From: Mariprofundaceae bacterium
GTDB taxonomy: Bacteria > Pseudomonadota > Zetaproteobacteria > Mariprofundales > Mariprofundaceae
Direction of reading: 5' to 3'
Assembly (NCBI GenBank): GCA_027018935.1
Contig: JALUXZ010000161.1
Location: forward strand, 1-50,642
Length of the DNA stretch: 50,642 bases
Part shown: positions 14,702 to 42,862 of the stretch, in pieces
How the letters are laid out: every line of letters begins with the position of its first letter
How positions within the stretch are numbered: position 1 is the stretch's first letter
Notes under the pieces: model-generated
What the model was told of the DNA's origin: nothing
Database searches by the model: none
The model's input: the letters and a program-made list of their open reading frames with translations, nothing else
Position numbers and translations under genes: made by a program

Positions 14702-17368
14702 ATGCCTCTTATTGATGAGCGTGCAAATCTGAGCCTCACGCAAGGCAATAGTGAGTCGTATGAAGTTTTAAAGGAGCAAGTTTGCCTGCTCTATAAGCCT
14801 TCGCTTCTTGCTGCTAATGCGACTATTTTTACTTCTGCCTTTCTTGCTTATATACAGTGGAATGTAATAAATCACACAACCATATTTTGCTGGCTAACTA
14901 TTATATGGGTGGTTGTCATAATTCGTATATTATGTTTTTTTGCCTTTAAACGAGAAAAACTTATTGCCTCACGGGTATCATTTTGGATGTACCTATATAT
15001 TGTAATAACCATTTTCGCTGGGGGTGCTTGGGGCTCGGCGGGAATATTTTTATTCCCTAATGAATTTGAGCACCAAGCTGCCACCATCGTAATCCTTGCT
15101 GGTATGGCAGGAGGCTCGATCACAACACTGGCTGCCTTGCGAACGCCAGTATTTATGTTCTTAATACTTGTCATGCTGCCGCTGATTGTACGTCTCTTTT
15201 TTGAACAAACTGACATGGCAGTTTCTTTTGCAATAATATGTACGGTTTATACTGTGTTTTTATTAAACTCTGCCAAGCTCACTTATGAAACCCACGCACA
15301 AAGTATTACCCTTCTAATCAGAAGTTTGGAGAGAGAAACTGCTGCGAAGACTTCTGAGAAAACACTCTTAAAAACCTCTGAAATTCTAAAAATGATTGCA
15401 CAGGGGCACCCTGCAAGAGAAATATATAATGCCATTGCACTATTGTATGAATCACGCCATTCAGGGTTGCGTTGCTCGATGTTGGAGCTAAAGGGCAATA
15501 AATTAATGCACGGCGGTGCTCCTAGTCTGCCAAAAGCATATTGCGAGGCTGTCAATGGATTAGAAAATGGCCCAAGCGTAGGCTCATGTGGAACATCCAC
15601 CTATACAGGCAAACGTGTTCTTGTTGAAAATATTGAAACCGATCCTAAATGGGCAAAGATTAAAGAGGTTGCGCTTCCTCATGGTATGCGCTGCTGCTGG
15701 TCTGAACCCATCAAAGACCAATCAGGTAAAGTCTTGGGTGCATTTGGAATGTATTATGATTATCCTGCCCTGCCGAATAAATCTGAATTAGCCGATTTGG
15801 AATCAGCTGCAAGCCTTGCTGGAATTGTCATGGAAAGGCAGCAAAGAGAAGTGCTTCTGGAGAAGTTACATAGTGCTTTTGAATATGCGTATGATGCCAT
15901 TATTATTGCAGATTTAGATGCACGCATTGAATATGTAAACCCTGTATTTGAAAAAATGACGGGTTATTCCGCTGAGGAGGCAGTTGGTGAATACTTCAGT
16001 ATTCTACGAAGCAATAAACACCCCGAAAGTTTTTATGATGATTTATTACAAAAATCCCAAGCTGGTAAACCTTGGCAGGGTGAGATTATTATCAAATGTA
16101 AAGATGGTTCTTTTCTCGAAGTGGAAAGAAGTGTTTCTCCTGTACTTGATAAACAAGGCACTCCCCTATTCCAAGTTGCTATTCAACGTGATGTTACGGA
16201 GCAAAAAATACTTGAAGAAAAATTCCAGCAAGCTCAAAAGCTAGAGGCTATTGGAACACTGGTGGGCGGTATCGCCCATGATTTCAATAATATTCTTGCA
16301 GGCATGACTGGTAACCTCTATTTGGCGAAAAAGCTTACAACAAGCATTCCACGTGTGCAAAAAAAGTTAGAGAATATCAATAAACTTTCATTTCGAGCTG
16401 CTGATCTCATTCAGCAATTGCTCACATTTGCCCGTAAAGATATGGTTCATATTCAACCGTTATCATTGCTTCCATTTTTTGAAGATATTATAAAATTTTC
16501 CCATTCAATTATTCCAGAAAACATTACTATTCAGCATATGATCGATGTAAATTCACTGTTTATTAAGGGTGATACAACGCAGCTACATCAAGTTCTGATA
16601 AATTTACTTACCAATGCCCGTGATGCCGTTGAGGGCGTAGATAGACCCTGTATTCTCATGAGTCTGGATATATTTAAGACAGACAATGCATTTATTGAAA
16701 AACACCCTTACTTTAAGCCTGGCTCATATGCACACTTAAGTGTGCAAGACAATGGTTGTGGTATTTCAAAAACAGATATTGAACATGTTTTTGAACCTTT
16801 TTTTACCACAAAGGAACAAGGCAAAGGAACAGGGCTAGGTCTATCTATGGTCTTTGGAGCAGTCAAAAATCACCACGGATTTATTGAAATCGATAGTGTT
16901 GAGGGTGAGGGCTCAATATTCCATATTTATATTCCACGCCTTATGGATAATGAGCATGTTGCCTCTACTGTATTAACTGAAAAGGAAGTGACTGAAGGGC
17001 ATGGCGAGTTAATTTTGCTGGTTGATGATGAAAGAGAAGTTCGAACAATCGGTAAGGAGGTGTTAAAAACATTAGGATATAAAGTATTAGAGGCATCCGA
17101 TGGTCTAGAAGCAATTAAATTATTTACTGAACACCAAAATGAAATTTCCCTGATTATTATGGATGTTGTGATGCCTAAGCTGGGTGGTGTAAAAGCTATT
17201 GAACGTATAAGAATGATACAACCCAACATAAGTGTTATTTTTGCAACAGGCTATGATAAGGAAGCAACATTTCCAGATAAGATACCAACAAGTGGTGAGT
17301 TTATTCTTACCAAGCCTTATGACATAGAAGAGCTTAGTCATATCATTAGGCGTAAGTTGAAAGCATAA
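14702..17368 (+). CDS. membrane hybrid histidine kinase (GAF-PAS-HisKA-HATPase-REC)
   Basis: An 888-residue sensor kinase. The N-terminus (about 35-205) has roughly six hydrophobic segments forming a membrane sensor. A GAF domain (about 245-380, with GSCGTSTYTGKRVLVENIETDP) and a PAS domain (about 386-500, with YVNPVFEKMTGYSAEEAVGE) follow. The phospho-accepting histidine is in GGIAHDFNN near 525. The ATP-binding domain has NLLTNARDAV, DNGCGI and GTGLGLSMV. The C-terminal receiver domain has its aspartate near 820 (IIMDVVMPK). No output response regulator is adjacent, so the partner must be elsewhere. The kinase core is paralogous to that at 27510-29846. Confidence 0.92.
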   Translation: MPLIDERANLSLTQGNSESYEVLKEQVCLLYKPSLLAANATIFTSAFLAYIQWNVINHTTIFCWLTIIWVVVIIRILCFFAFKREKLIASRVSFWMYLYIVITIFAGGAWGSAGIFLFPNEFEHQAATIVILAGMAGGSITTLAALRTPVFMFLILVMLPLIVRLFFEQTDMAVSFAIICTVYTVFLLNSAKLTYETHAQSITLLIRSLERETAAKTSEKTLLKTSEILKMIAQGHPAREIYNAIALLYESRHSGLRCSMLELKGNKLMHGGAPSLPKAYCEAVNGLENGPSVGSCGTSTYTGKRVLVENIETDPKWAKIKEVALPHGMRCCWSEPIKDQSGKVLGAFGMYYDYPALPNKSELADLESAASLAGIVMERQQREVLLEKLHSAFEYAYDAIIIADLDARIEYVNPVFEKMTGYSAEEAVGEYFSILRSNKHPESFYDDLLQKSQAGKPWQGEIIIKCKDGSFLEVERSVSPVLDKQGTPLFQVAIQRDVTEQKILEEKFQQAQKLEAIGTLVGGIAHDFNNILAGMTGNLYLAKKLTTSIPRVQKKLENINKLSFRAADLIQQLLTFARKDMVHIQPLSLLPFFEDIIKFSHSIIPENITIQHMIDVNSLFIKGDTTQLHQVLINLLTNARDAVEGVDRPCILMSLDIFKTDNAFIEKHPYFKPGSYAHLSVQDNGCGISKTDIEHVFEPFFTTKEQGKGTGLGLSMVFGAVKNHHGFIEIDSVEGEGSIFHIYIPRLMDNEHVASTVLTEKEVTEGHGELILLVDDEREVRTIGKEVLKTLGYKVLEASDGLEAIKLFTEHQNEISLIIMDVVMPKLGGVKAIERIRMIQPNISVIFATGYDKEATFPDKIPTSGEFILTKPYDIEELSHIIRRKLKA

Positions 17369-27509: not shown

Positions 27510-29846
27510 ATGGCTGTAAGTGTTATAGATATACTGTTACGAAATGTTGCGACTATTCAAGTTGGCGACTCACTGGAGCGTGCCTATCAACTTATCGCTG
27601 AACAAGATTCCCATGCAATCATTGTCATGCAAGGTGATAAACCATTGGGTTTACTTCATGAAAATGATATTTCTCTGATTCAACAGAAAAACATTGATTC
27701 TCAAACACTCATACAGGCAAACCATATACCATCCAGCTCTATTGCTCAGCTTGAGCTTAGCATGCCATTACAAGCGGCATTCGACTTTCTCTTTGATCAT
27801 CAGCGTCGTCAGCTTGTTGTTATCAATCAGCATGGTGAATTTGAGGGTCTGTTAACGCTAGCACGTCTTATCGACAGCCTATCTGGGAAATCATTGCAAC
27901 ATGCTAGCAAACCTCAGCCTGACGTATCCACTGATACCGAAAAATGTTATCAACAATTGATATACGCCATGCCAGAAGCCGTTATAATTCATCACCGAGA
28001 CCATATCCTTTTTGCCAATCCAGCCTCACTTGAACTACTTGCTTGGGATTCTAAACATAATATTGTCGAATTACCGTTTATGGAATTTATACACCCAGAT
28101 TCTCAAGCAGGGATTCACCAGCATATGGATAACCTCCAGCAAAATCCAAGCAACAAGTTTGCAGCTATCGAAGAGCGATTAATACGCCATGATGGTAAGA
28201 CCATTTGGGTAGAAATGAGCTGTAGTATCAGCAAACATCAAGGAAAAACAGTGGTTATATCCGTATTTCGTGATATTTCCAAGCGCAAAAAAGCCGAGTT
28301 AGAATCTCAGCTACTAAAGAAAACCATTAATACCATTCAAGAGAGTATCTTTATCACAGATCCGAATGGTATCATTCAATATGCGAACCAAAGCTTCACA
28401 CGTATCATGGGTTATACAGCACAAGAAGTCTTGGGTAAAACGCCAGCTATTTTAAATAGCCATCAACAGTCCAAAGAGTTTTATCAACACCTGTGGCAGA
28501 CGCTTAAAAGTGGGCAGTCATGGTCTGGGCGAATTATGAATAAACATAAAGATGGCACAATTTTCCCTGTTTATATGTCCATTGCTCCTATGTTTAACAC
28601 ACAACAGAAAATTACACATTTTGTAGCTGTGCATGAAGATTTAACAACTGATGAAGCACTACAACATAAAATTATGCAAGCTCAAAAAATGGAAGCTGTG
28701 GCAATTATGGTAGGTGGTATCGCCCATGATTTTAATAATCTTCTAGCCACCATCCTTGGCAACCTCTATTTAATGCGCAAAAAGATGCAAGATGATGAAA
28801 AAGGTATGTCGCGCATCCAGACCATGGAAAAGGCTGTACACCATGGGGCTAGCATGATTCAACAAATGTTAACCTTTTCACGCCAAGATAGTCCTGATAT
28901 GAATACCATGAATATGTTGGCATTCTTAAAGGAGGCAACCAAGCTTGCAGAGAATAGTTTACCTGAAAATATTCAGTTTACATTGGATTATTCATCCGAT
29001 GTAAATGAATCCTATATACAAGGCAACCTGCATCAATTACAGCAAGTAATTCTAAGTTTGGTCAACAATGCCAAAGATGCCGTGCGCAATGTTGTGAGTC
29101 CTAAAATAAGCCTAACCTTAAATCAAGAAAACCCCACCCCAGAGATGCTATTAAATTATACGGGAGTACATAGCAAAGGGGAATGGCAGTGTTTGCGTTG
29201 CCAGGATAATGGTTATGGTATTGCACAAAAACATATCGATAAGATATTCGACCCATTTTTTACCACTAAAACTGTTGGAGAAGGTACTGGTCTAGGGCTT
29301 GCCATGGTCTATGGAGCGGTTCAAAATCACCATGGACTAATTGCTGTCGAGAGCGGACTCGGTGTAGGCACTACCATATCCATTTATATCCCCAAGCACA
29401 AAACATCTGAGCTTCAACTTATTGCCAATGAAAGCAAATTTGACCAAGGCAGAGGGCAGTCCATCTTACTCGTTGATGATGATGAGCCTTTACGCAGTGT
29501 ACTGGATGAAATTCTCAAAGAATCTGGATTTAAAACTTTTCAAGCAGGAAATGGGCAAGAAGCTGTGGATATTTTTACGGCGAATCAAGCTGATATTGCC
29601 ATCATTATTATGGATGTTGTCATGCCTATTATGGGCGGGGTGGCTGCAGCCAAGGAAATTCGTAATATCAACAGCACCATCCCCATTGTTTTCCAAACAG
29701 GTTATGGTGAGCAAACAGAATTGGATGCTGCTGCCTCCATTGAAAACTGCGATACATTACGAAAACCATTACAAGTTCATGCACTTCTAGCAAAAATAGA
29801 AGAAAAACTCGAAGCTTCAGCAACTTTAAATAGCCTTAAGCCATGA
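27510..29846 (+). CDS. cytoplasmic hybrid histidine kinase (CBS-PAS-PAS-HisKA-HATPase-REC)
   Basis: A 778-residue soluble sensor kinase. A CBS-domain pair occupies about residues 1-127 (SDSHAIIVMQGDKPLGLLHE-like region, then RRQLVVINQHGEFEGLLT), so an adenine nucleotide may be sensed. Two PAS domains follow (about 148-262 and 270-385; the second has YANQSFTRIMGYTAQEVLG). The phospho-histidine is in GGIAHDFNN near 402. The ATPase domain has SLVNNAKDAV and GTGLGLAMVYG. The receiver aspartate is near 699 (IIMDVVMPI). No transmembrane segment is present. The stop overlaps the nrtS-like gene as ATGA, which suggests a role tied to nitrate or nitrite. Confidence 0.92.
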   Translation: MAVSVIDILLRNVATIQVGDSLERAYQLIAEQDSHAIIVMQGDKPLGLLHENDISLIQQKNIDSQTLIQANHIPSSSIAQLELSMPLQAAFDFLFDHQRRQLVVINQHGEFEGLLTLARLIDSLSGKSLQHASKPQPDVSTDTEKCYQQLIYAMPEAVIIHHRDHILFANPASLELLAWDSKHNIVELPFMEFIHPDSQAGIHQHMDNLQQNPSNKFAAIEERLIRHDGKTIWVEMSCSISKHQGKTVVISVFRDISKRKKAELESQLLKKTINTIQESIFITDPNGIIQYANQSFTRIMGYTAQEVLGKTPAILNSHQQSKEFYQHLWQTLKSGQSWSGRIMNKHKDGTIFPVYMSIAPMFNTQQKITHFVAVHEDLTTDEALQHKIMQAQKMEAVAIMVGGIAHDFNNLLATILGNLYLMRKKMQDDEKGMSRIQTMEKAVHHGASMIQQMLTFSRQDSPDMNTMNMLAFLKEATKLAENSLPENIQFTLDYSSDVNESYIQGNLHQLQQVILSLVNNAKDAVRNVVSPKISLTLNQENPTPEMLLNYTGVHSKGEWQCLRCQDNGYGIAQKHIDKIFDPFFTTKTVGEGTGLGLAMVYGAVQNHHGLIAVESGLGVGTTISIYIPKHKTSELQLIANESKFDQGRGQSILLVDDDEPLRSVLDEILKESGFKTFQAGNGQEAVDIFTANQADIAIIIMDVVMPIMGGVAAAKEIRNINSTIPIVFQTGYGEQTELDAAASIENCDTLRKPLQVHALLAKIEEKLEASATLNSLKP

Positions 29847-38652: not shown

Positions 38653-38681
38653 TTGACAAGCTCATTAGATGTATCTTTAAT
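38653..38681 (+). promoter_or_regulatory. sigma70-type promoter of the octaheme cytochrome operon
   Basis: TTGACA at 38653-38658 and TTTAAT at 38676-38681, with a 17-base spacer. Transcription would start around 38688-38690, about 45 bases before the first gene. The -35 is a perfect consensus and the -10 differs at one position. It faces the DUF3365/octaheme operon. Confidence 0.7.
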
Positions 38682-38688
38682 GTACCTT
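38666..38688 (+). promoter_or_regulatory. NsrR-like operator overlapping the -10 element
   Basis: The half-sites TAGATGTATCT and TAATGTACCTT, separated by one T, follow the known NsrR pattern AAGATGYATTT-N-AAATRCATCTT at about 9 and 8 of 11 positions. The box covers the -10 region of the promoter, where repressor binding would block transcription. This was matched by eye. NsrR itself is not encoded in the window. Confidence 0.35.
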
Positions 38689-38695
38689 ATATTTT

Positions 38696-38717
38696 GTGAG
38701 TATTATAATTCACTCAT
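38696..38717. promoter_or_regulatory. inverted repeat in the leader of the cytochrome operon
   Basis: TGAGT (38697-38701) and ACTCA (38712-38716) flank ten bases that include the palindrome ATTATAAT. It lies just downstream of the predicted transcription start and 16 bases before the first start codon, followed by GGAGG. It could be a second operator or a small hairpin that affects translation. Confidence 0.35.
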
Positions 38718-38732
38718 AAATTTGGAGGTTTT

Positions 38733-39305
38733 ATGTTATTCAAAGTCATAGGCTGCCTTTTTGTAATTTTATCTTTTTCTGCCTGTGCAAGCAAAACATC
38801 CATTGATATTAAACAACAAGTAGCATTACAAAAAGAAGCCACCTCTATCATACAACAATTTGCAAACACGCTGAAACCACAATTAAAACAAGCACTACAA
38901 CATGGCGGTCCTGCTTATGCCATTGAAACCTGTTCAAAAGCAGCCCCTCTACTGACTACACAGTTAAGCAAACAAACTGGCTGGTCAATCAAACGGGTCA
39001 GTTTAAAAGCTCGCAATCATCACACTGCCATACCCAATAGTTGGGAGAAGTCTATCTTGCAACAATTTAACCGTGACCAAGCTGACGGAAAATCACCTTC
39101 AACCATGCAGGCAAGCCGAATAGAAAATGGGACTTACCAGTTTATGAAGGCTCAATCAGTCACCCCAGTTTGCCTATTATGTCATGGTGAGAATCTTAAA
39201 CCTGATGTTGTTGCTGCATTGAAGAAATACTACCCGCAAGATCAGGCAAGATATTATAAACTTGGGCAAATAAGAGGAGCGTTTAGTTTAACTAAACAGC
39301 TGTGA
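38733..39305 (+). CDS. DUF3365 (Tll0287-like) heme lipoprotein
   Basis: A 190-residue exported protein. A signal sequence ends at a lipobox-like SFSACAS. The body resembles DUF3365/Tll0287-like sensors: YAIETCSKAAPLL, SIKRVSLKARNHHTAIPNSWE and a c-type heme motif CLLCH near residue 147. Related domains bind heme c with an unusual cysteine or similar ligand and are seen as redox or gas sensors or electron carriers. GGAGG precedes the ATG. It is the first gene of the operon and is followed after 25 bases by the octaheme gene. Its exact role (electron carrier or sensor) is open. Confidence 0.82.
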   Translation: MLFKVIGCLFVILSFSACASKTSIDIKQQVALQKEATSIIQQFANTLKPQLKQALQHGGPAYAIETCSKAAPLLTTQLSKQTGWSIKRVSLKARNHHTAIPNSWEKSILQQFNRDQADGKSPSTMQASRIENGTYQFMKAQSVTPVCLLCHGENLKPDVVAALKKYYPQDQARYYKLGQIRGAFSLTKQL

Positions 39306-39330
39306 AAATAAGCAACGCTAGGAGGTTGTA

Positions 39331-40959
39331 ATGGAACGGTGCTTACAATATCTGCAAGTGTCCCTATTGATAACATGTTTTTCAGGTATGATGGTTTTTG
39401 CTACTGACGCTCAGAGCTCAGAAACCCATACTATAGAAAAAACGGCAAACCCAATCAATACAACAGCGAATCATAGCCAATTCAAAGCCTTGCAACAAAA
39501 ATTCAACAGTGGTCCGGAAGTCACCAAAGCTTGCCTCTCCTGTCATAATCAAGCTGGCAAACAGATACAGAAAAATATTCATTGGACTTGGTCTTATCAC
39601 AATAAAAAGACTGGGCAACTGCTCGGCAAAGAACATCTGATCAATAATTTTTGTTCAAATGCCCGTGGTAACGAAGGTATGTGTGCCCAGTGTCATATTA
39701 GTTATGGGGCAAAAAACTTTAAATTACCGAAAAAACAGAGTCAAATTGATTGCCTCGTTTGTCATGATACAACAGGTAGCTATTATCGTTTACCACCCAC
39801 AAAGGGAAGTCCTGCCTGTTCGATTTTATTTGCAGGCAAGAAACCTATCCAATGGGAACATGTTGCACAGAATGTCGGACTACCAAGGCGCTCTAACTGT
39901 GGATCCTGCCATTTTAATGGTGGCGGTGGTGATAACGTAAAACATGGTGACCTATCTTCAATCATGGCCAATCCAACGAAAGATGTGGATATACATATGT
40001 CCCCAGACGGACAAAACTTTGCTTGTACCGCTTGCCATGTAACCAAAAATCACCAGTGGTCTGGTAGTCGCTATCAGGGGTTGGCTCGTGATTTAAAAGG
40101 CACAGGTAAGCCAGGTTTTCGCAGGGTTGCCACATCATGTGAGTCTTGTCACGGGCTGGAGCCGCATCCAAAAGATTCAATAAAACATTTGACCCTGAAC
40201 ACCCATGTCAAACGGGTAGCTTGTCAGGCGTGTCATATACCAAGCTTTGCCCGTGGAGGTGTGGCAACACGTACCTTCTGGGATTGGCGCACCGCTGGTC
40301 GCACCAAAAAGGGCTTGGGTTTTATGGAAGAAAATTATACCCAGGGAAATGGGAAAAAACGAGAAACCTACTGGTCAATCAAGGGGAATTTCAAAAATGG
40401 TGAAAATATTGTACCATATTATGCTTGGTATAATGGCGTAAATACTTATACCACAGTGGATACACACTTTGACCCAACAAAGCCCGTGGACATCAACCAT
40501 CTGGAAGGCTCTGCCAATGATGCGGCTTCACGTATCTGGCCATTCAAACGTATGGTAACTTGGCTGCAATATGATAAAAAATACAATAACTTAGTATATA
40601 CACACTTATGGGGCAATGACGATGAGTCTTTTTGGGGTAACTTCAAGCTTAAAAAGGCAATTGCCCGTGGTATGAAAGATGCAAACAAACCATTCAGTGG
40701 TGAGGTCGGTTTTATCAAAACATATTCCTATTGGCCAACAACTCATATGGTTGCCCCCAAAGAAAAGGCGGTTGCATGCATGGAGTGTCATGCTACAGAT
40801 GGTCGGTTAAACGAAATTAAGGGCATATATATAGCAGGACATCATCATTTTACATGGCTGGATAAAACAGCTTGGCTTGTCATTGCTCTTACGGGTAGTG
40901 GAATCTTACTGCATATGCTGATACGTCTATTTGCAGCTGTAAGGAGGAAGAAGTCATGA
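39331..40959 (+). CDS. octaheme c-type cytochrome, tetrathionate reductase (OTR) family
   Basis: A 542-residue periplasmic cytochrome with exactly eight CxxCH motifs, starting near residues 68, 118, 141, 190, 232, 270, 298 and 483. This count and spacing, the isolated last motif and the overall size fit the octaheme tetrathionate reductase family, whose Shewanella member reduces tetrathionate, nitrite and hydroxylamine in vitro and has a lysine-ligated active heme. An N-terminal signal sequence and, unusually for a soluble enzyme, a C-terminal membrane anchor near 510-535 (followed by RRKKS) are visible. AGGAGG precedes the ATG. The stop overlaps the cytochrome b start (ATGA). The physiological substrate is not determinable from sequence. 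Confidence 0.88.
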   Translation: MERCLQYLQVSLLITCFSGMMVFATDAQSSETHTIEKTANPINTTANHSQFKALQQKFNSGPEVTKACLSCHNQAGKQIQKNIHWTWSYHNKKTGQLLGKEHLINNFCSNARGNEGMCAQCHISYGAKNFKLPKKQSQIDCLVCHDTTGSYYRLPPTKGSPACSILFAGKKPIQWEHVAQNVGLPRRSNCGSCHFNGGGGDNVKHGDLSSIMANPTKDVDIHMSPDGQNFACTACHVTKNHQWSGSRYQGLARDLKGTGKPGFRRVATSCESCHGLEPHPKDSIKHLTLNTHVKRVACQACHIPSFARGGVATRTFWDWRTAGRTKKGLGFMEENYTQGNGKKRETYWSIKGNFKNGENIVPYYAWYNGVNTYTTVDTHFDPTKPVDINHLEGSANDAASRIWPFKRMVTWLQYDKKYNNLVYTHLWGNDDESFWGNFKLKKAIARGMKDANKPFSGEVGFIKTYSYWPTTHMVAPKEKAVACMECHATDGRLNEIKGIYIAGHHHFTWLDKTAWLVIALTGSGILLHMLIRLFAAVRRKKS

Positions 40960-41639
40960 GCATGCATCGCATTATGATTTATACCCGTTTTGAGCGGCTA
41001 TGGCACTGGCTACAAGCTGGAGCTATTCTAACACTATTATTTACAGGCCTTCGCATTCATGGAACTCATACACTGATCAGCTTTGAGACAGCCGCAACCA
41101 TCCATAATATCGTGGCTATTGGGCTTTTAGTATTATGGGCATTTGCCACATTCTGGTTATTTACAACCAGTAACTGGAGACATTATATGCCAACCAAACA
41201 AGGACTCTGGCGTATTATCCGTTTTTATTCCTATGGCATATTTCAGGGGGAACATCATCCATACCACAAGGCATTTTGGCGCAAGCATAACCCCTTACAG
41301 GCTGCTGCTTACCTTGGTTTAAAAATAGTAATCTTTCCAATGGTGTGGATATCAGGTTTAATTTATCTTTATATCGTTCTTGGCGGCTCATGGTCAGGTT
41401 TGCTTAATTTTCCAGCAGCGGTTGCATTCACCCATACATTAGCAGCTTTTGCACTGATTCTTTTTCTAATTATTCACCTATATATGCTGACTATTGGAGG
41501 CAGCCTTATACAACATATCACCCCTATGATTAACGGCTTTGATGAAGTCGATCTATCTCAAGTAGAGGAAGCCTACCTAGAAGCCGATGAACCAAATCAT
41601 ATCAAAGATGACATTAATCAATCCGAAAACCATCGCTAA
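40956..41639 (+). CDS. membrane cytochrome b (cytochrome b561/FdnI-like)
   Basis: A 227-residue protein with four main membrane segments. Heme-ligand histidines are plausible in RFERLWHWLQAG, AATIHNIVAIG, VAFTHTLAAF and LIIHLYMLTI. The pattern is that of the di-heme cytochrome b subunits of formate dehydrogenase, hydrogenase and thiosulfate reductase. It most likely exchanges electrons between the quinone pool and the periplasmic cytochromes encoded on both sides. It overlaps the octaheme gene by four bases and shares one base with the next gene (TAATG). The acidic C-terminal tail is cytoplasmic by the usual topology. Confidence 0.87.
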   Translation: MSMHRIMIYTRFERLWHWLQAGAILTLLFTGLRIHGTHTLISFETAATIHNIVAIGLLVLWAFATFWLFTTSNWRHYMPTKQGLWRIIRFYSYGIFQGEHHPYHKAFWRKHNPLQAAAYLGLKIVIFPMVWISGLIYLYIVLGGSWSGLLNFPAAVAFTHTLAAFALILFLIIHLYMLTIGGSLIQHITPMINGFDEVDLSQVEEAYLEADEPNHIKDDINQSENHR

Positions 41640-42862
41640 TGATTGCTAATATGCCATACAGACAGCTTACAAGGATATCTATTATTATGCTAAGTATCTT
41701 TATTTGGCATGCTGGACAAGCACTGGCTAACCCAATAAACATTGTAGCCAGCGAGTCTGGTTATCCAAAACTTCATTTGGCAACATCAAAACATTCTGCA
41801 AAACAAATCAAGCATGGGGAGTACCTAGTCAAAATGGCAGACTGCTTTACCTGCCACACCAATGAGTCAGAACACGGCAAAGCCTTTGCTGGCGGTTTAA
41901 AAATAGATACGCCATTTGGCTCTTTGTATGCTCCAAATATTACACCAGACAAAACAACGGGTATTGGCAACTGGAGTGATCAAGACTTTGTAAAGGCTGT
42001 ACGTGAAGGCATCGCACCCAATGGATCCTATTATTATCCAGTATTTCCCTATAATTACTTCAATAAAATGAGTAAACAAGACATTCTTGATATTAAAGCA
42101 TATCTGGATGTTATCCCGGCTGTCCAGCAACAAAACCACAAGCAGGAGATGAATTGGCCATTTAACTATCGCATATTGCAAATTGGCTGGCGCTTGCTGT
42201 TCTTTACGTTCAACAAAGAGTCGTTCAAAGTAGATGTCAGAGCCTCTAAACTAAGAAACAGAGGAGCTTTTATTGTTGAAGGGCCAGGGCATTGTGCCTT
42301 ATGCCACTCAAAATTAAATTATTTTGGTGTTCCCGAAACTGCTCATTATCTCGCAGGTGCTTTTGTTGAAGGTTATTATGCACCCAATATAACTTCACAA
42401 GGTTTACATCATTTAGCCAATAAAGATGTCGCAAATATTTTCTTGCGCAATGAAAAGCCAACGCACGCTCAACTTGGAGGACCAATGCAGGGTGTCGAAC
42501 ACAATAGTCTTCGCTACCTAAATCAGTATGATATTTCGGCTATTGCGGATTATTTGAAATCTGTACGTAGCAGCCCACCTAAAGTAGAGGTGGCATTGAA
42601 TAGGAACTTTAGTATCGAGGAAGGTAAAAAGCTATATCAATCAAACTGTAAAATGTGCCACGCCAACCAAATTATGGGTGCTCCAAACACAGATAAGCAC
42701 ATTTGGGATGTATTGCTCGATCAAGGGCGCAATAAGCTCTATGAAGTAGCTATTCGTGGTAGCGGCGACATGCCCGCCAAAGGTGGATGTGATGCGTGTG
42801 CCAATGGAAGAGTGCAGGCTGCTGTCGACTATATGATTGATATGACTAGAAAACAAAAATAA
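41639..42862 (+). CDS. triheme cytochrome c with C-terminal c5-like domain
   Basis: A 407-residue exported protein with three CxxCH motifs: CFTCH near 69, CALCH near 219, CKMCH near 337. The first two domains resemble the cytochrome subunits of membrane alcohol and gluconate dehydrogenases (GEYLVKMADCFTCHT, PFGSLYAPNITPD). The third resembles cytochrome c5, including the distal MPAKGGCDACANG with its extra cysteine pair. An N-terminal signal sequence is present. As the last gene of the operon it probably passes electrons between cytochrome b or the octaheme enzyme and soluble carriers or a terminal oxidase. Confidence 0.87.
   Translation: MIANMPYRQLTRISIIMLSIFIWHAGQALANPINIVASESGYPKLHLATSKHSAKQIKHGEYLVKMADCFTCHTNESEHGKAFAGGLKIDTPFGSLYAPNITPDKTTGIGNWSDQDFVKAVREGIAPNGSYYYPVFPYNYFNKMSKQDILDIKAYLDVIPAVQQQNHKQEMNWPFNYRILQIGWRLLFFTFNKESFKVDVRASKLRNRGAFIVEGPGHCALCHSKLNYFGVPETAHYLAGAFVEGYYAPNITSQGLHHLANKDVANIFLRNEKPTHAQLGGPMQGVEHNSLRYLNQYDISAIADYLKSVRSSPPKVEVALNRNFSIEEGKKLYQSNCKMCHANQIMGAPNTDKHIWDVLLDQGRNKLYEVAIRGSGDMPAKGGCDACANGRVQAAVDYMIDMTRKQK

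Follow-up and report, generated by a model that had tools for sequence, protein, structure and literature searches.

A contig of 50,642 nucleotides from a marine, iron-oxidizer-type Mariprofundaceae bacterium (JALUXZ010000161.1, assembly GCA_027018935.1), called the window at its full length, carries four adjacent heme-protein genes on the plus strand. They encode a DUF3365 heme lipoprotein, an octaheme cytochrome of the OTR family, a cytochrome b and a triheme cytochrome c. An earlier note on this DNA described them as one tightly spaced operon, and the coordinates agree (Table 1): the successive junctions are a 25-base gap, a 4-base overlap and a 1-base overlap, and good ribosome-binding sites precede the DUF3365 and OTR genes. 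The operon is real and not a chance arrangement. Its GC content (41.6%) is not distinct from that of the window (42.0%). Below, L-numbers denote surveyed loci and G-numbers denote genomes of the order Mariprofundales (78 examined), G000 being the window's assembly.

The upstream limit of the operon, 38653, was set solely from a by-eye match to a sigma-70 promoter. A promoter scan did not list this match, and the matches it did list were no more numerous than in shuffled sequence. An NsrR-like palindrome (38666-38688) overlaps the possible promoter and agrees weakly with the consensus, at 17 of 22 positions. Control by NsrR was dropped as an idea: the window holds a second 17/22 match elsewhere, and nothing similar was seen by eye upstream in two other family members, L004 and L024.

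Table 1. Features of the operon in the window, and OTR-cytochrome b-receiver (REC) fusions at three other loci.
Feature	Position	Strand	Basis
Possible sigma-70 promoter: TTGACA (38653-38658), 17 bp, TTTAAT (38676-38681)	38653-38681	+	Read by eye; weak
DUF3365/Tll0287 (sCache_heme) lipoprotein, 190 aa, one CXXCH	38733-39305	+	PF11845, 79 bits
Membrane-anchored octaheme cytochrome, OTR family, 542 aa	39331-40959	+	TIGR04315, 557 bits; 1SP3 match, 7e-88; CXXCH count
Codon of OTR Lys204	39940-39942	+	Alignment with 1SP3
OTR C-terminal transmembrane anchor, residues 516-534	40876-40932	+	Hydropathy
Codon of anchor His528	40912-40914	+	OTR alignment
Codon of anchor Arg532	40924-40926	+	OTR alignment
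Four-helix diheme cytochrome b (PF01292, PhsC-like), 227 aa	40956-41639	+	PF01292, 79 bits
Periplasmic triheme cytochrome c, 407 aa	41639-42862	+	Three CXXCH; PDB matches
Triheme third domain, residues 326-407, cytochrome c5/c555-like	42614-42859	+	PDB matches 2zon, 4j20
OTR-cytochrome b-REC fusion	L007:304-3003	-	
OTR-cytochrome b-REC fusion	L211:2985-5837	+	
OTR-cytochrome b-REC fusion	L213:6673-9108	-	

An anchored OTR and its cytochrome b partner

By its sequence, the octaheme protein is a true OTR and, most likely, not a hydroxylamine oxidoreductase (HAO). It matches TIGR04315 far above the cutoff of 375 bits, over model positions 1-440, a result that speaks against an HAO assignment. Eight CXXCH motifs lie at residues 68, 118, 141, 190, 232, 270, 298 and 483, and the sole PDB match at an E-value of 0.01 or better is 1SP3, over residues 53-494. 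No HAO-type family was listed among the protein's Pfam and NCBIfam matches, where TIGR04315 was decisive; a search with PF13447 gave no match anywhere in the genome, nor in any control. Lys204 aligns with Lys153 of 1SP3, which in the Shewanella oneidensis OTR ligates the active heme, and this lysine is kept in all 114 aligned OTRs. Asn105 and Cys108 (Asn61 and Cys64 in 1SP3) are present in 112 of the 114, the other two having gaps.

At the C terminus, a hydrophobic helix is followed by basic residues, a pattern that places the heme part in the periplasm and the tail in the cytoplasm. Two residues of this anchor are strongly conserved. His528 is invariant, occurring in 109 of 109 OTRs in which the anchor could be aligned. 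Arg532 is nearly so: it is kept in 110 of 110 rows, another four having gaps, and the one exception is a glutamine in the L211 fusion. OTR membership, the active-heme lysine and the C-terminal anchor had all been proposed or singled out for checking in the earlier note, and all three are present.

All the anchored OTRs that we examined have cytochrome b as their regular partner. We surveyed the pairing in two collections, 80 named genome loci holding OTR and a separate proteobacterial sample of 34 OTRs. Cytochrome b adjoins OTR in 79 of the 80 loci, and in the last the contig ends inside OTR. In the proteobacterial sample, all 30 anchored OTRs and none of the four soluble ones, among them the Shewanella-type operons, have a cytochrome b; because the soluble four cluster on the tree, this amounts to one evolutionary contrast and not many. 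In three soluble operons (L176, L177 and L179), OTR is accompanied by a monoheme cytochrome c together with a protein of outer-membrane type, which proved to be DUF3373 in the single operon tested. The fourth soluble-type OTR lies beside a heptaheme-cytochrome b fusion as well as a Sulf_transp/rhodanese protein. Such a locus, L178:1852-7353 (minus strand), with the soluble-type OTR, the heptaheme-cytochrome b fusion and two-part Sulf_transp/rhodanese genes, represents a third OTR arrangement; similar sulfur-transport genes occur at L219.

The idea that the octaheme protein keeps atypical company is thus wrong for cytochrome b and right for the DUF3365 and triheme proteins, which join it in Mariprofundaceae only. 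An otr-cytochrome b561 gene cluster has been mentioned in an Ignavibacteriae genome (PMC7509429), and the searchable literature yielded no general statement of the pairing.

The cytochrome b itself has the ligands expected of a diheme protein. His17, His50, His160 and His174 are invariant where aligned (107-109 of 109 sequences), which is enough for two b hemes. They lie on helices 1, 2 and 4, at positions that presumably match the heme ligands of FdnI, placing the protein in the FdnI/HyaC/PhsC type of PF01292. It is not PhsC proper: its best NCBIfam match, PRK15006 (thiosulfate reductase cytochrome b), scores 95 bits against a cutoff of 204.

At three loci (L007, L211 and L213), OTR, cytochrome b and a receiver domain share a single reading frame. 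Natural fusion of OTR to cytochrome b is strong evidence that the two work together. In an AlphaFold model of such a fusion, the transmembrane helix, the four cytochrome b helices and the REC fold are predicted with fair to good confidence.

Two heme proteins added in Mariprofundaceae

The DUF3365 protein matches Tll0287 (5B82), with its CXXCH at residue 147 and a possible lipid-attachment cysteine, Cys18; its homologues also have lipoprotein-like N-termini. Cys67, Cys147, Cys150 and His151 are invariant in 12 of 12 homologues, and Cys67 is the likely second, axial heme ligand. CXXCH, a cysteine as probable axial ligand and the lack of a fused output domain place the protein in the stand-alone sCache_heme class, which a 2026 preprint describes as Cys/His-ligated, redox-like rather than nitric oxide (NO)-sensing, and poor at binding NO (PMC12889525). 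The NO-sensing class carries a fused TM/HAMP or kinase output, and the protein in the window is a 190-residue lipoprotein only. We rejected a role in NO sensing on these grounds.

The triheme cytochrome is a chimera. Residues from about 47 to 315 match AdhB/FdhC-type proteins (8gy3, 2e-52; 7w2j, 8e-50; 8gy2), which serve as cytochrome subunits in quinone-linked dehydrogenases for aldehydes, alcohols and fructose. The third domain matches structures of cytochromes c551, c555 and c5, as the earlier note had read it. All three CXXCH motifs, one methionine per domain (Met144, Met283 and Met378) and a Cys384/Cys387 pair in the c5-like domain are invariant among 13 aligned triheme sequences. An AdhB-type triheme subunit would have three AdhB-like domains and a dehydrogenase partner; here the likeness covers domains 1 and 2, and no dehydrogenase gene is adjacent. 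A supposed resemblance between the third domain and the monoheme cytochrome of the Shewanella operon was discarded as uninformative, being a 15-residue match around the heme site.

Within the order, OTR occurs in 7 of 78 genomes (4 of 18 genera), DUF3365 in 12 and the triheme gene in 15. G000, G009, G075 and G078 have the four genes in an unbroken row, and in G083 they fall on two contigs, whereas in genus g8 (G065) a TolC-like gene, not DUF3365, precedes OTR. Outside Mariprofundaceae the four-gene set was found in no named locus; L069 has just a weak triheme-like neighbor on the other strand. The DUF3365 and triheme addition is thus confined to Mariprofundaceae, and the refuting condition that the earlier note had named, rare co-occurrence of the four genes, is mostly borne out beyond the family. 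That note had also called the module self-contained, a description that is questionable where the triheme gene is concerned. This gene is retained in some zetaproteobacterial genomes that lack OTR: in 5 of its 15 genomes (G001, G002, G017, G032 and G033) there is no trace of OTR or cytochrome b nearby, so the triheme protein can work alone. In one zetaproteobacterial genome without OTR, the triheme gene lies between LysR and NnrS genes (L146:8327-12186), and members of the same genus (G065, G068 and G069) have OTR or cytochrome b beside the triheme gene or NnrS. The L146 locus looks like one that lost, or never gained, OTR.

The flanks differ from genome to genome: rlmL and tRNAs in the window, an ECF sigma factor in G009, Fur/peroxidase and cytochrome bd genes in G078, and an amino-acid permease in G075. 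In a congener whose rnd is 91% identical, the tRNA cluster is shared, but mnmA occupies the place of the operon. On the tree, zetaproteobacterial OTRs form one clade within those of sulfur-oxidizing gammaproteobacteria, beside two Nitrospirota metagenome-assembled genomes. This nested position and the patchy distribution suggest horizontal gain; base composition gives no sign of recent transfer and speaks neither for nor against it. The G000 assembly comprises 274 contigs and 2.57 Mb, with 7.8% estimated contamination, and its congeners are smaller (1.6-2.1 Mb); the window looks genuine, because its rnd is 91% identical to that of the congener. Elsewhere in the window, at 14702-17368 and 27510-29846, are two large GAF/PAS hybrid histidine kinases with C-terminal receiver-like domains, identified by reading the sequence.

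A probable quinone-linked complex and its possible substrates

We consider it probable that the operon specifies an inner-membrane, quinone-linked OTR-cytochrome b complex of a widespread kind, in a Mariprofundaceae form to which two heme proteins have been added. The periplasmic OTR, held by its C-terminal helix, would dock on the diheme cytochrome b, which would exchange electrons with the quinone pool as in formate dehydrogenase N or PhsABC. By its topology, His528 faces the cytoplasmic side, as do His17 and His174 of cytochrome b. The quinone site of formate dehydrogenase N also lies on the cytoplasmic side, so the OTR anchor probably supplies part of a quinone/heme pocket there through His528 and Arg532. 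The soluble triheme protein would most likely open a second route for electrons, to the high-potential cytochrome pool of the periplasm, and the DUF3365 lipoprotein is more likely to be a redox accessory than to sense NO. A quinone-linked redox module, as first proposed, is well supported by the co-conservation of OTR with cytochrome b, the fusions and the invariant histidines; the proposed role of the triheme protein as an exchange point to another chain is plausible. A point against such a complex is that the AlphaFold fusion model is poor in the heme region, with a mean pLDDT of 63.7.

More tentatively, the Mariprofundaceae OTR could be a true dual-port complex, connected to quinone by cytochrome b and the anchor His/Arg pair, to a high-potential iron-oxidation chain by the triheme protein, and completed by the lipid-anchored sCache_heme subunit. 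With a REC domain on the same OTR-cytochrome b core elsewhere, the family would then span both enzymes and redox-coupled signaling devices.

For the substrate, we lean modestly toward sulfur, because sulfur genes occur among the near neighbors of OTR elsewhere and otr lies beside soxYZ-S3 in lucinid symbionts (PMC11237559). Among 140 near-neighbor genes at other loci, the commonest Pfam family is Sulf_transp (5), and Rhodanese occurs 3 times; both are absent from the 25 commonest families of 106 far genes, a list in which families with at least two members would show and single members would be hidden. Rhodanese, DsrE-like, persulfide-dioxygenase-like, SQR-like or YeeE-like (Sulf_transp) genes lie no more than about 3.5 kb from OTR in about 11 of 118 loci, spread over several lineages; the SQR, persulfide dioxygenase (PDO) and DsrE relatives were named by sequence inspection and not by family search. 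L183:4393-10368 brings together rhodanese, OTR, cytochrome b, DsrE-like, persulfide-dioxygenase-like and SQR-like genes, and the Marinobacter loci L094, L095 and L101 have this set in part.

Several observations weigh against a sulfur substrate. The near/far comparison is small, and the sulfur neighborhoods are a minority of loci in lineages other than that of the window, where none of the genes beside the operon is a sulfur gene. A SoxB search across the order gave no match, but it lacked a positive control and is uninformative. In the L053 symbiont, OTR has NirS and NirDL-type genes at a distance of about 7.5 kb. The S. oneidensis OTR, active with tetrathionate, also reduces nitrite and hydroxylamine and has been placed in nitrogen respiration via STC (work cited in PMC4484225). 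Sulfur oxyanions, in particular the tetrathionate/thiosulfate couple, are our leading candidate class, somewhat short of an even chance; nitrite or hydroxylamine follows at clearly lower likelihood, and something else comes last.

Our doubts about nitrogen oxides, whose reduction or detoxification the earlier note had raised as a possibility, come mainly from the genomes. A module that reduces or detoxifies nitrite, hydroxylamine or NO with quinol electrons delivered by cytochrome b would suit the annotation of OTR for nitrite in tubeworm symbionts (PMC7540712), the presence of NnrS in genus g8 close to OTR or to the triheme gene, and the stress-like setting of the G078 operon between Fur/CCP and cytochrome bd genes. 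Against this, of the 7 OTR-positive zetaproteobacterial genomes only 1 has NapA, and NnrS, present in 47 of the 78 genomes of the order, does not track OTR, so that the phylogenetic profiles reveal no association. NirS searches, run without a positive control and hence uninformative, gave no matches. The frequent near neighbors elsewhere include no nitrogen-oxide family and lean toward sulfur, the NsrR-like box is not conserved, and stand-alone DUF3365 proteins bind NO poorly. We regard such a function as possible, neither shown nor favored.

Far less likely is a mainly sensory or regulated switching role, in which OTR-cytochrome b would read the periplasmic redox state through the membrane. 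Such a role would make sense of the receiver domain (PF00072), which besides the three fusions is found at the C terminus of separate cytochromes b in L006, L008, L009, L015, L172, L174 and L175. OTRs of this type form one clade (9 tree rows, SH-aLRT 100), and the phospho-accepting aspartate is present in 7 of 8 REC sequences checked, with asparagine in L015. A PAS-hybrid histidine kinase two genes downstream of the L211 fusion (L211:6840-9578, plus strand) is a candidate phosphate donor. However, the cytochrome b in the window and most of those paired with OTR have no REC domain, and all catalytic residues are retained, which a pure sensor would not need. Scarcely more probable is a module without a small-molecule substrate, which would buffer electrons in the iron-oxidation chain or form a branch of it. 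The host family belongs to an iron-oxidizer lineage, the c5-like domain of the triheme protein could face an oxidase branch, and the triheme gene also occurs alone. The active-site Lys, Cys and Asn of OTR are nevertheless strictly conserved, and the OTR-cytochrome b pair is common in organisms that do not oxidize iron.

The physiological role of OTR has been argued so far mainly from one soluble Shewanella enzyme, whereas most of the OTRs examined here have a membrane anchor and a diheme cytochrome b as partner; the anchor histidine is invariant, and fusions of both chains occur naturally. The survey thus points to a defined complex and a site for mutagenesis, and to Marinobacter, Chromatiaceae and Rhodobacterales as better hosts for settling substrate and direction. 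In the zetaproteobacterial operon, the two extra heme proteins could connect the complex to an iron-oxidation chain.

The S. oneidensis OTR (1SP3, TIGR04315) shares with the protein in the window its eight CXXCH motifs, active-heme lysine and Asn/Cys pocket residues, and the two match over nearly the full length. It differs in being soluble and lacking a dedicated cytochrome b, receiving its electrons from CymA through STC; comparable operons encode a monoheme cytochrome c plus an outer-membrane protein of the DUF3373 family. Formate dehydrogenase N and PhsABC resemble the proposed complex in their four-helix diheme cytochrome b, its four ligand histidines and a periplasmic catalytic partner, which in those systems is a molybdoenzyme and here an octaheme cytochrome. 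The Ignavibacteriae otr-cytochrome b561 cluster, also found here in many Proteobacteria, likewise has an anchored OTR followed by a PF01292 cytochrome b but lacks the DUF3365 and triheme genes. Stand-alone sCache_heme proteins have the CXXCH and invariant cysteine of the DUF3365 protein and likewise no fused signaling domain; the protein in the window is set apart as a probable lipoprotein that shares an operon with OTR. Finally, the triheme protein resembles AdhB/FdhC subunits in domains 1 and 2 and departs from them in its cytochrome c5/c555-like third domain and in having no dehydrogenase subunit nearby.

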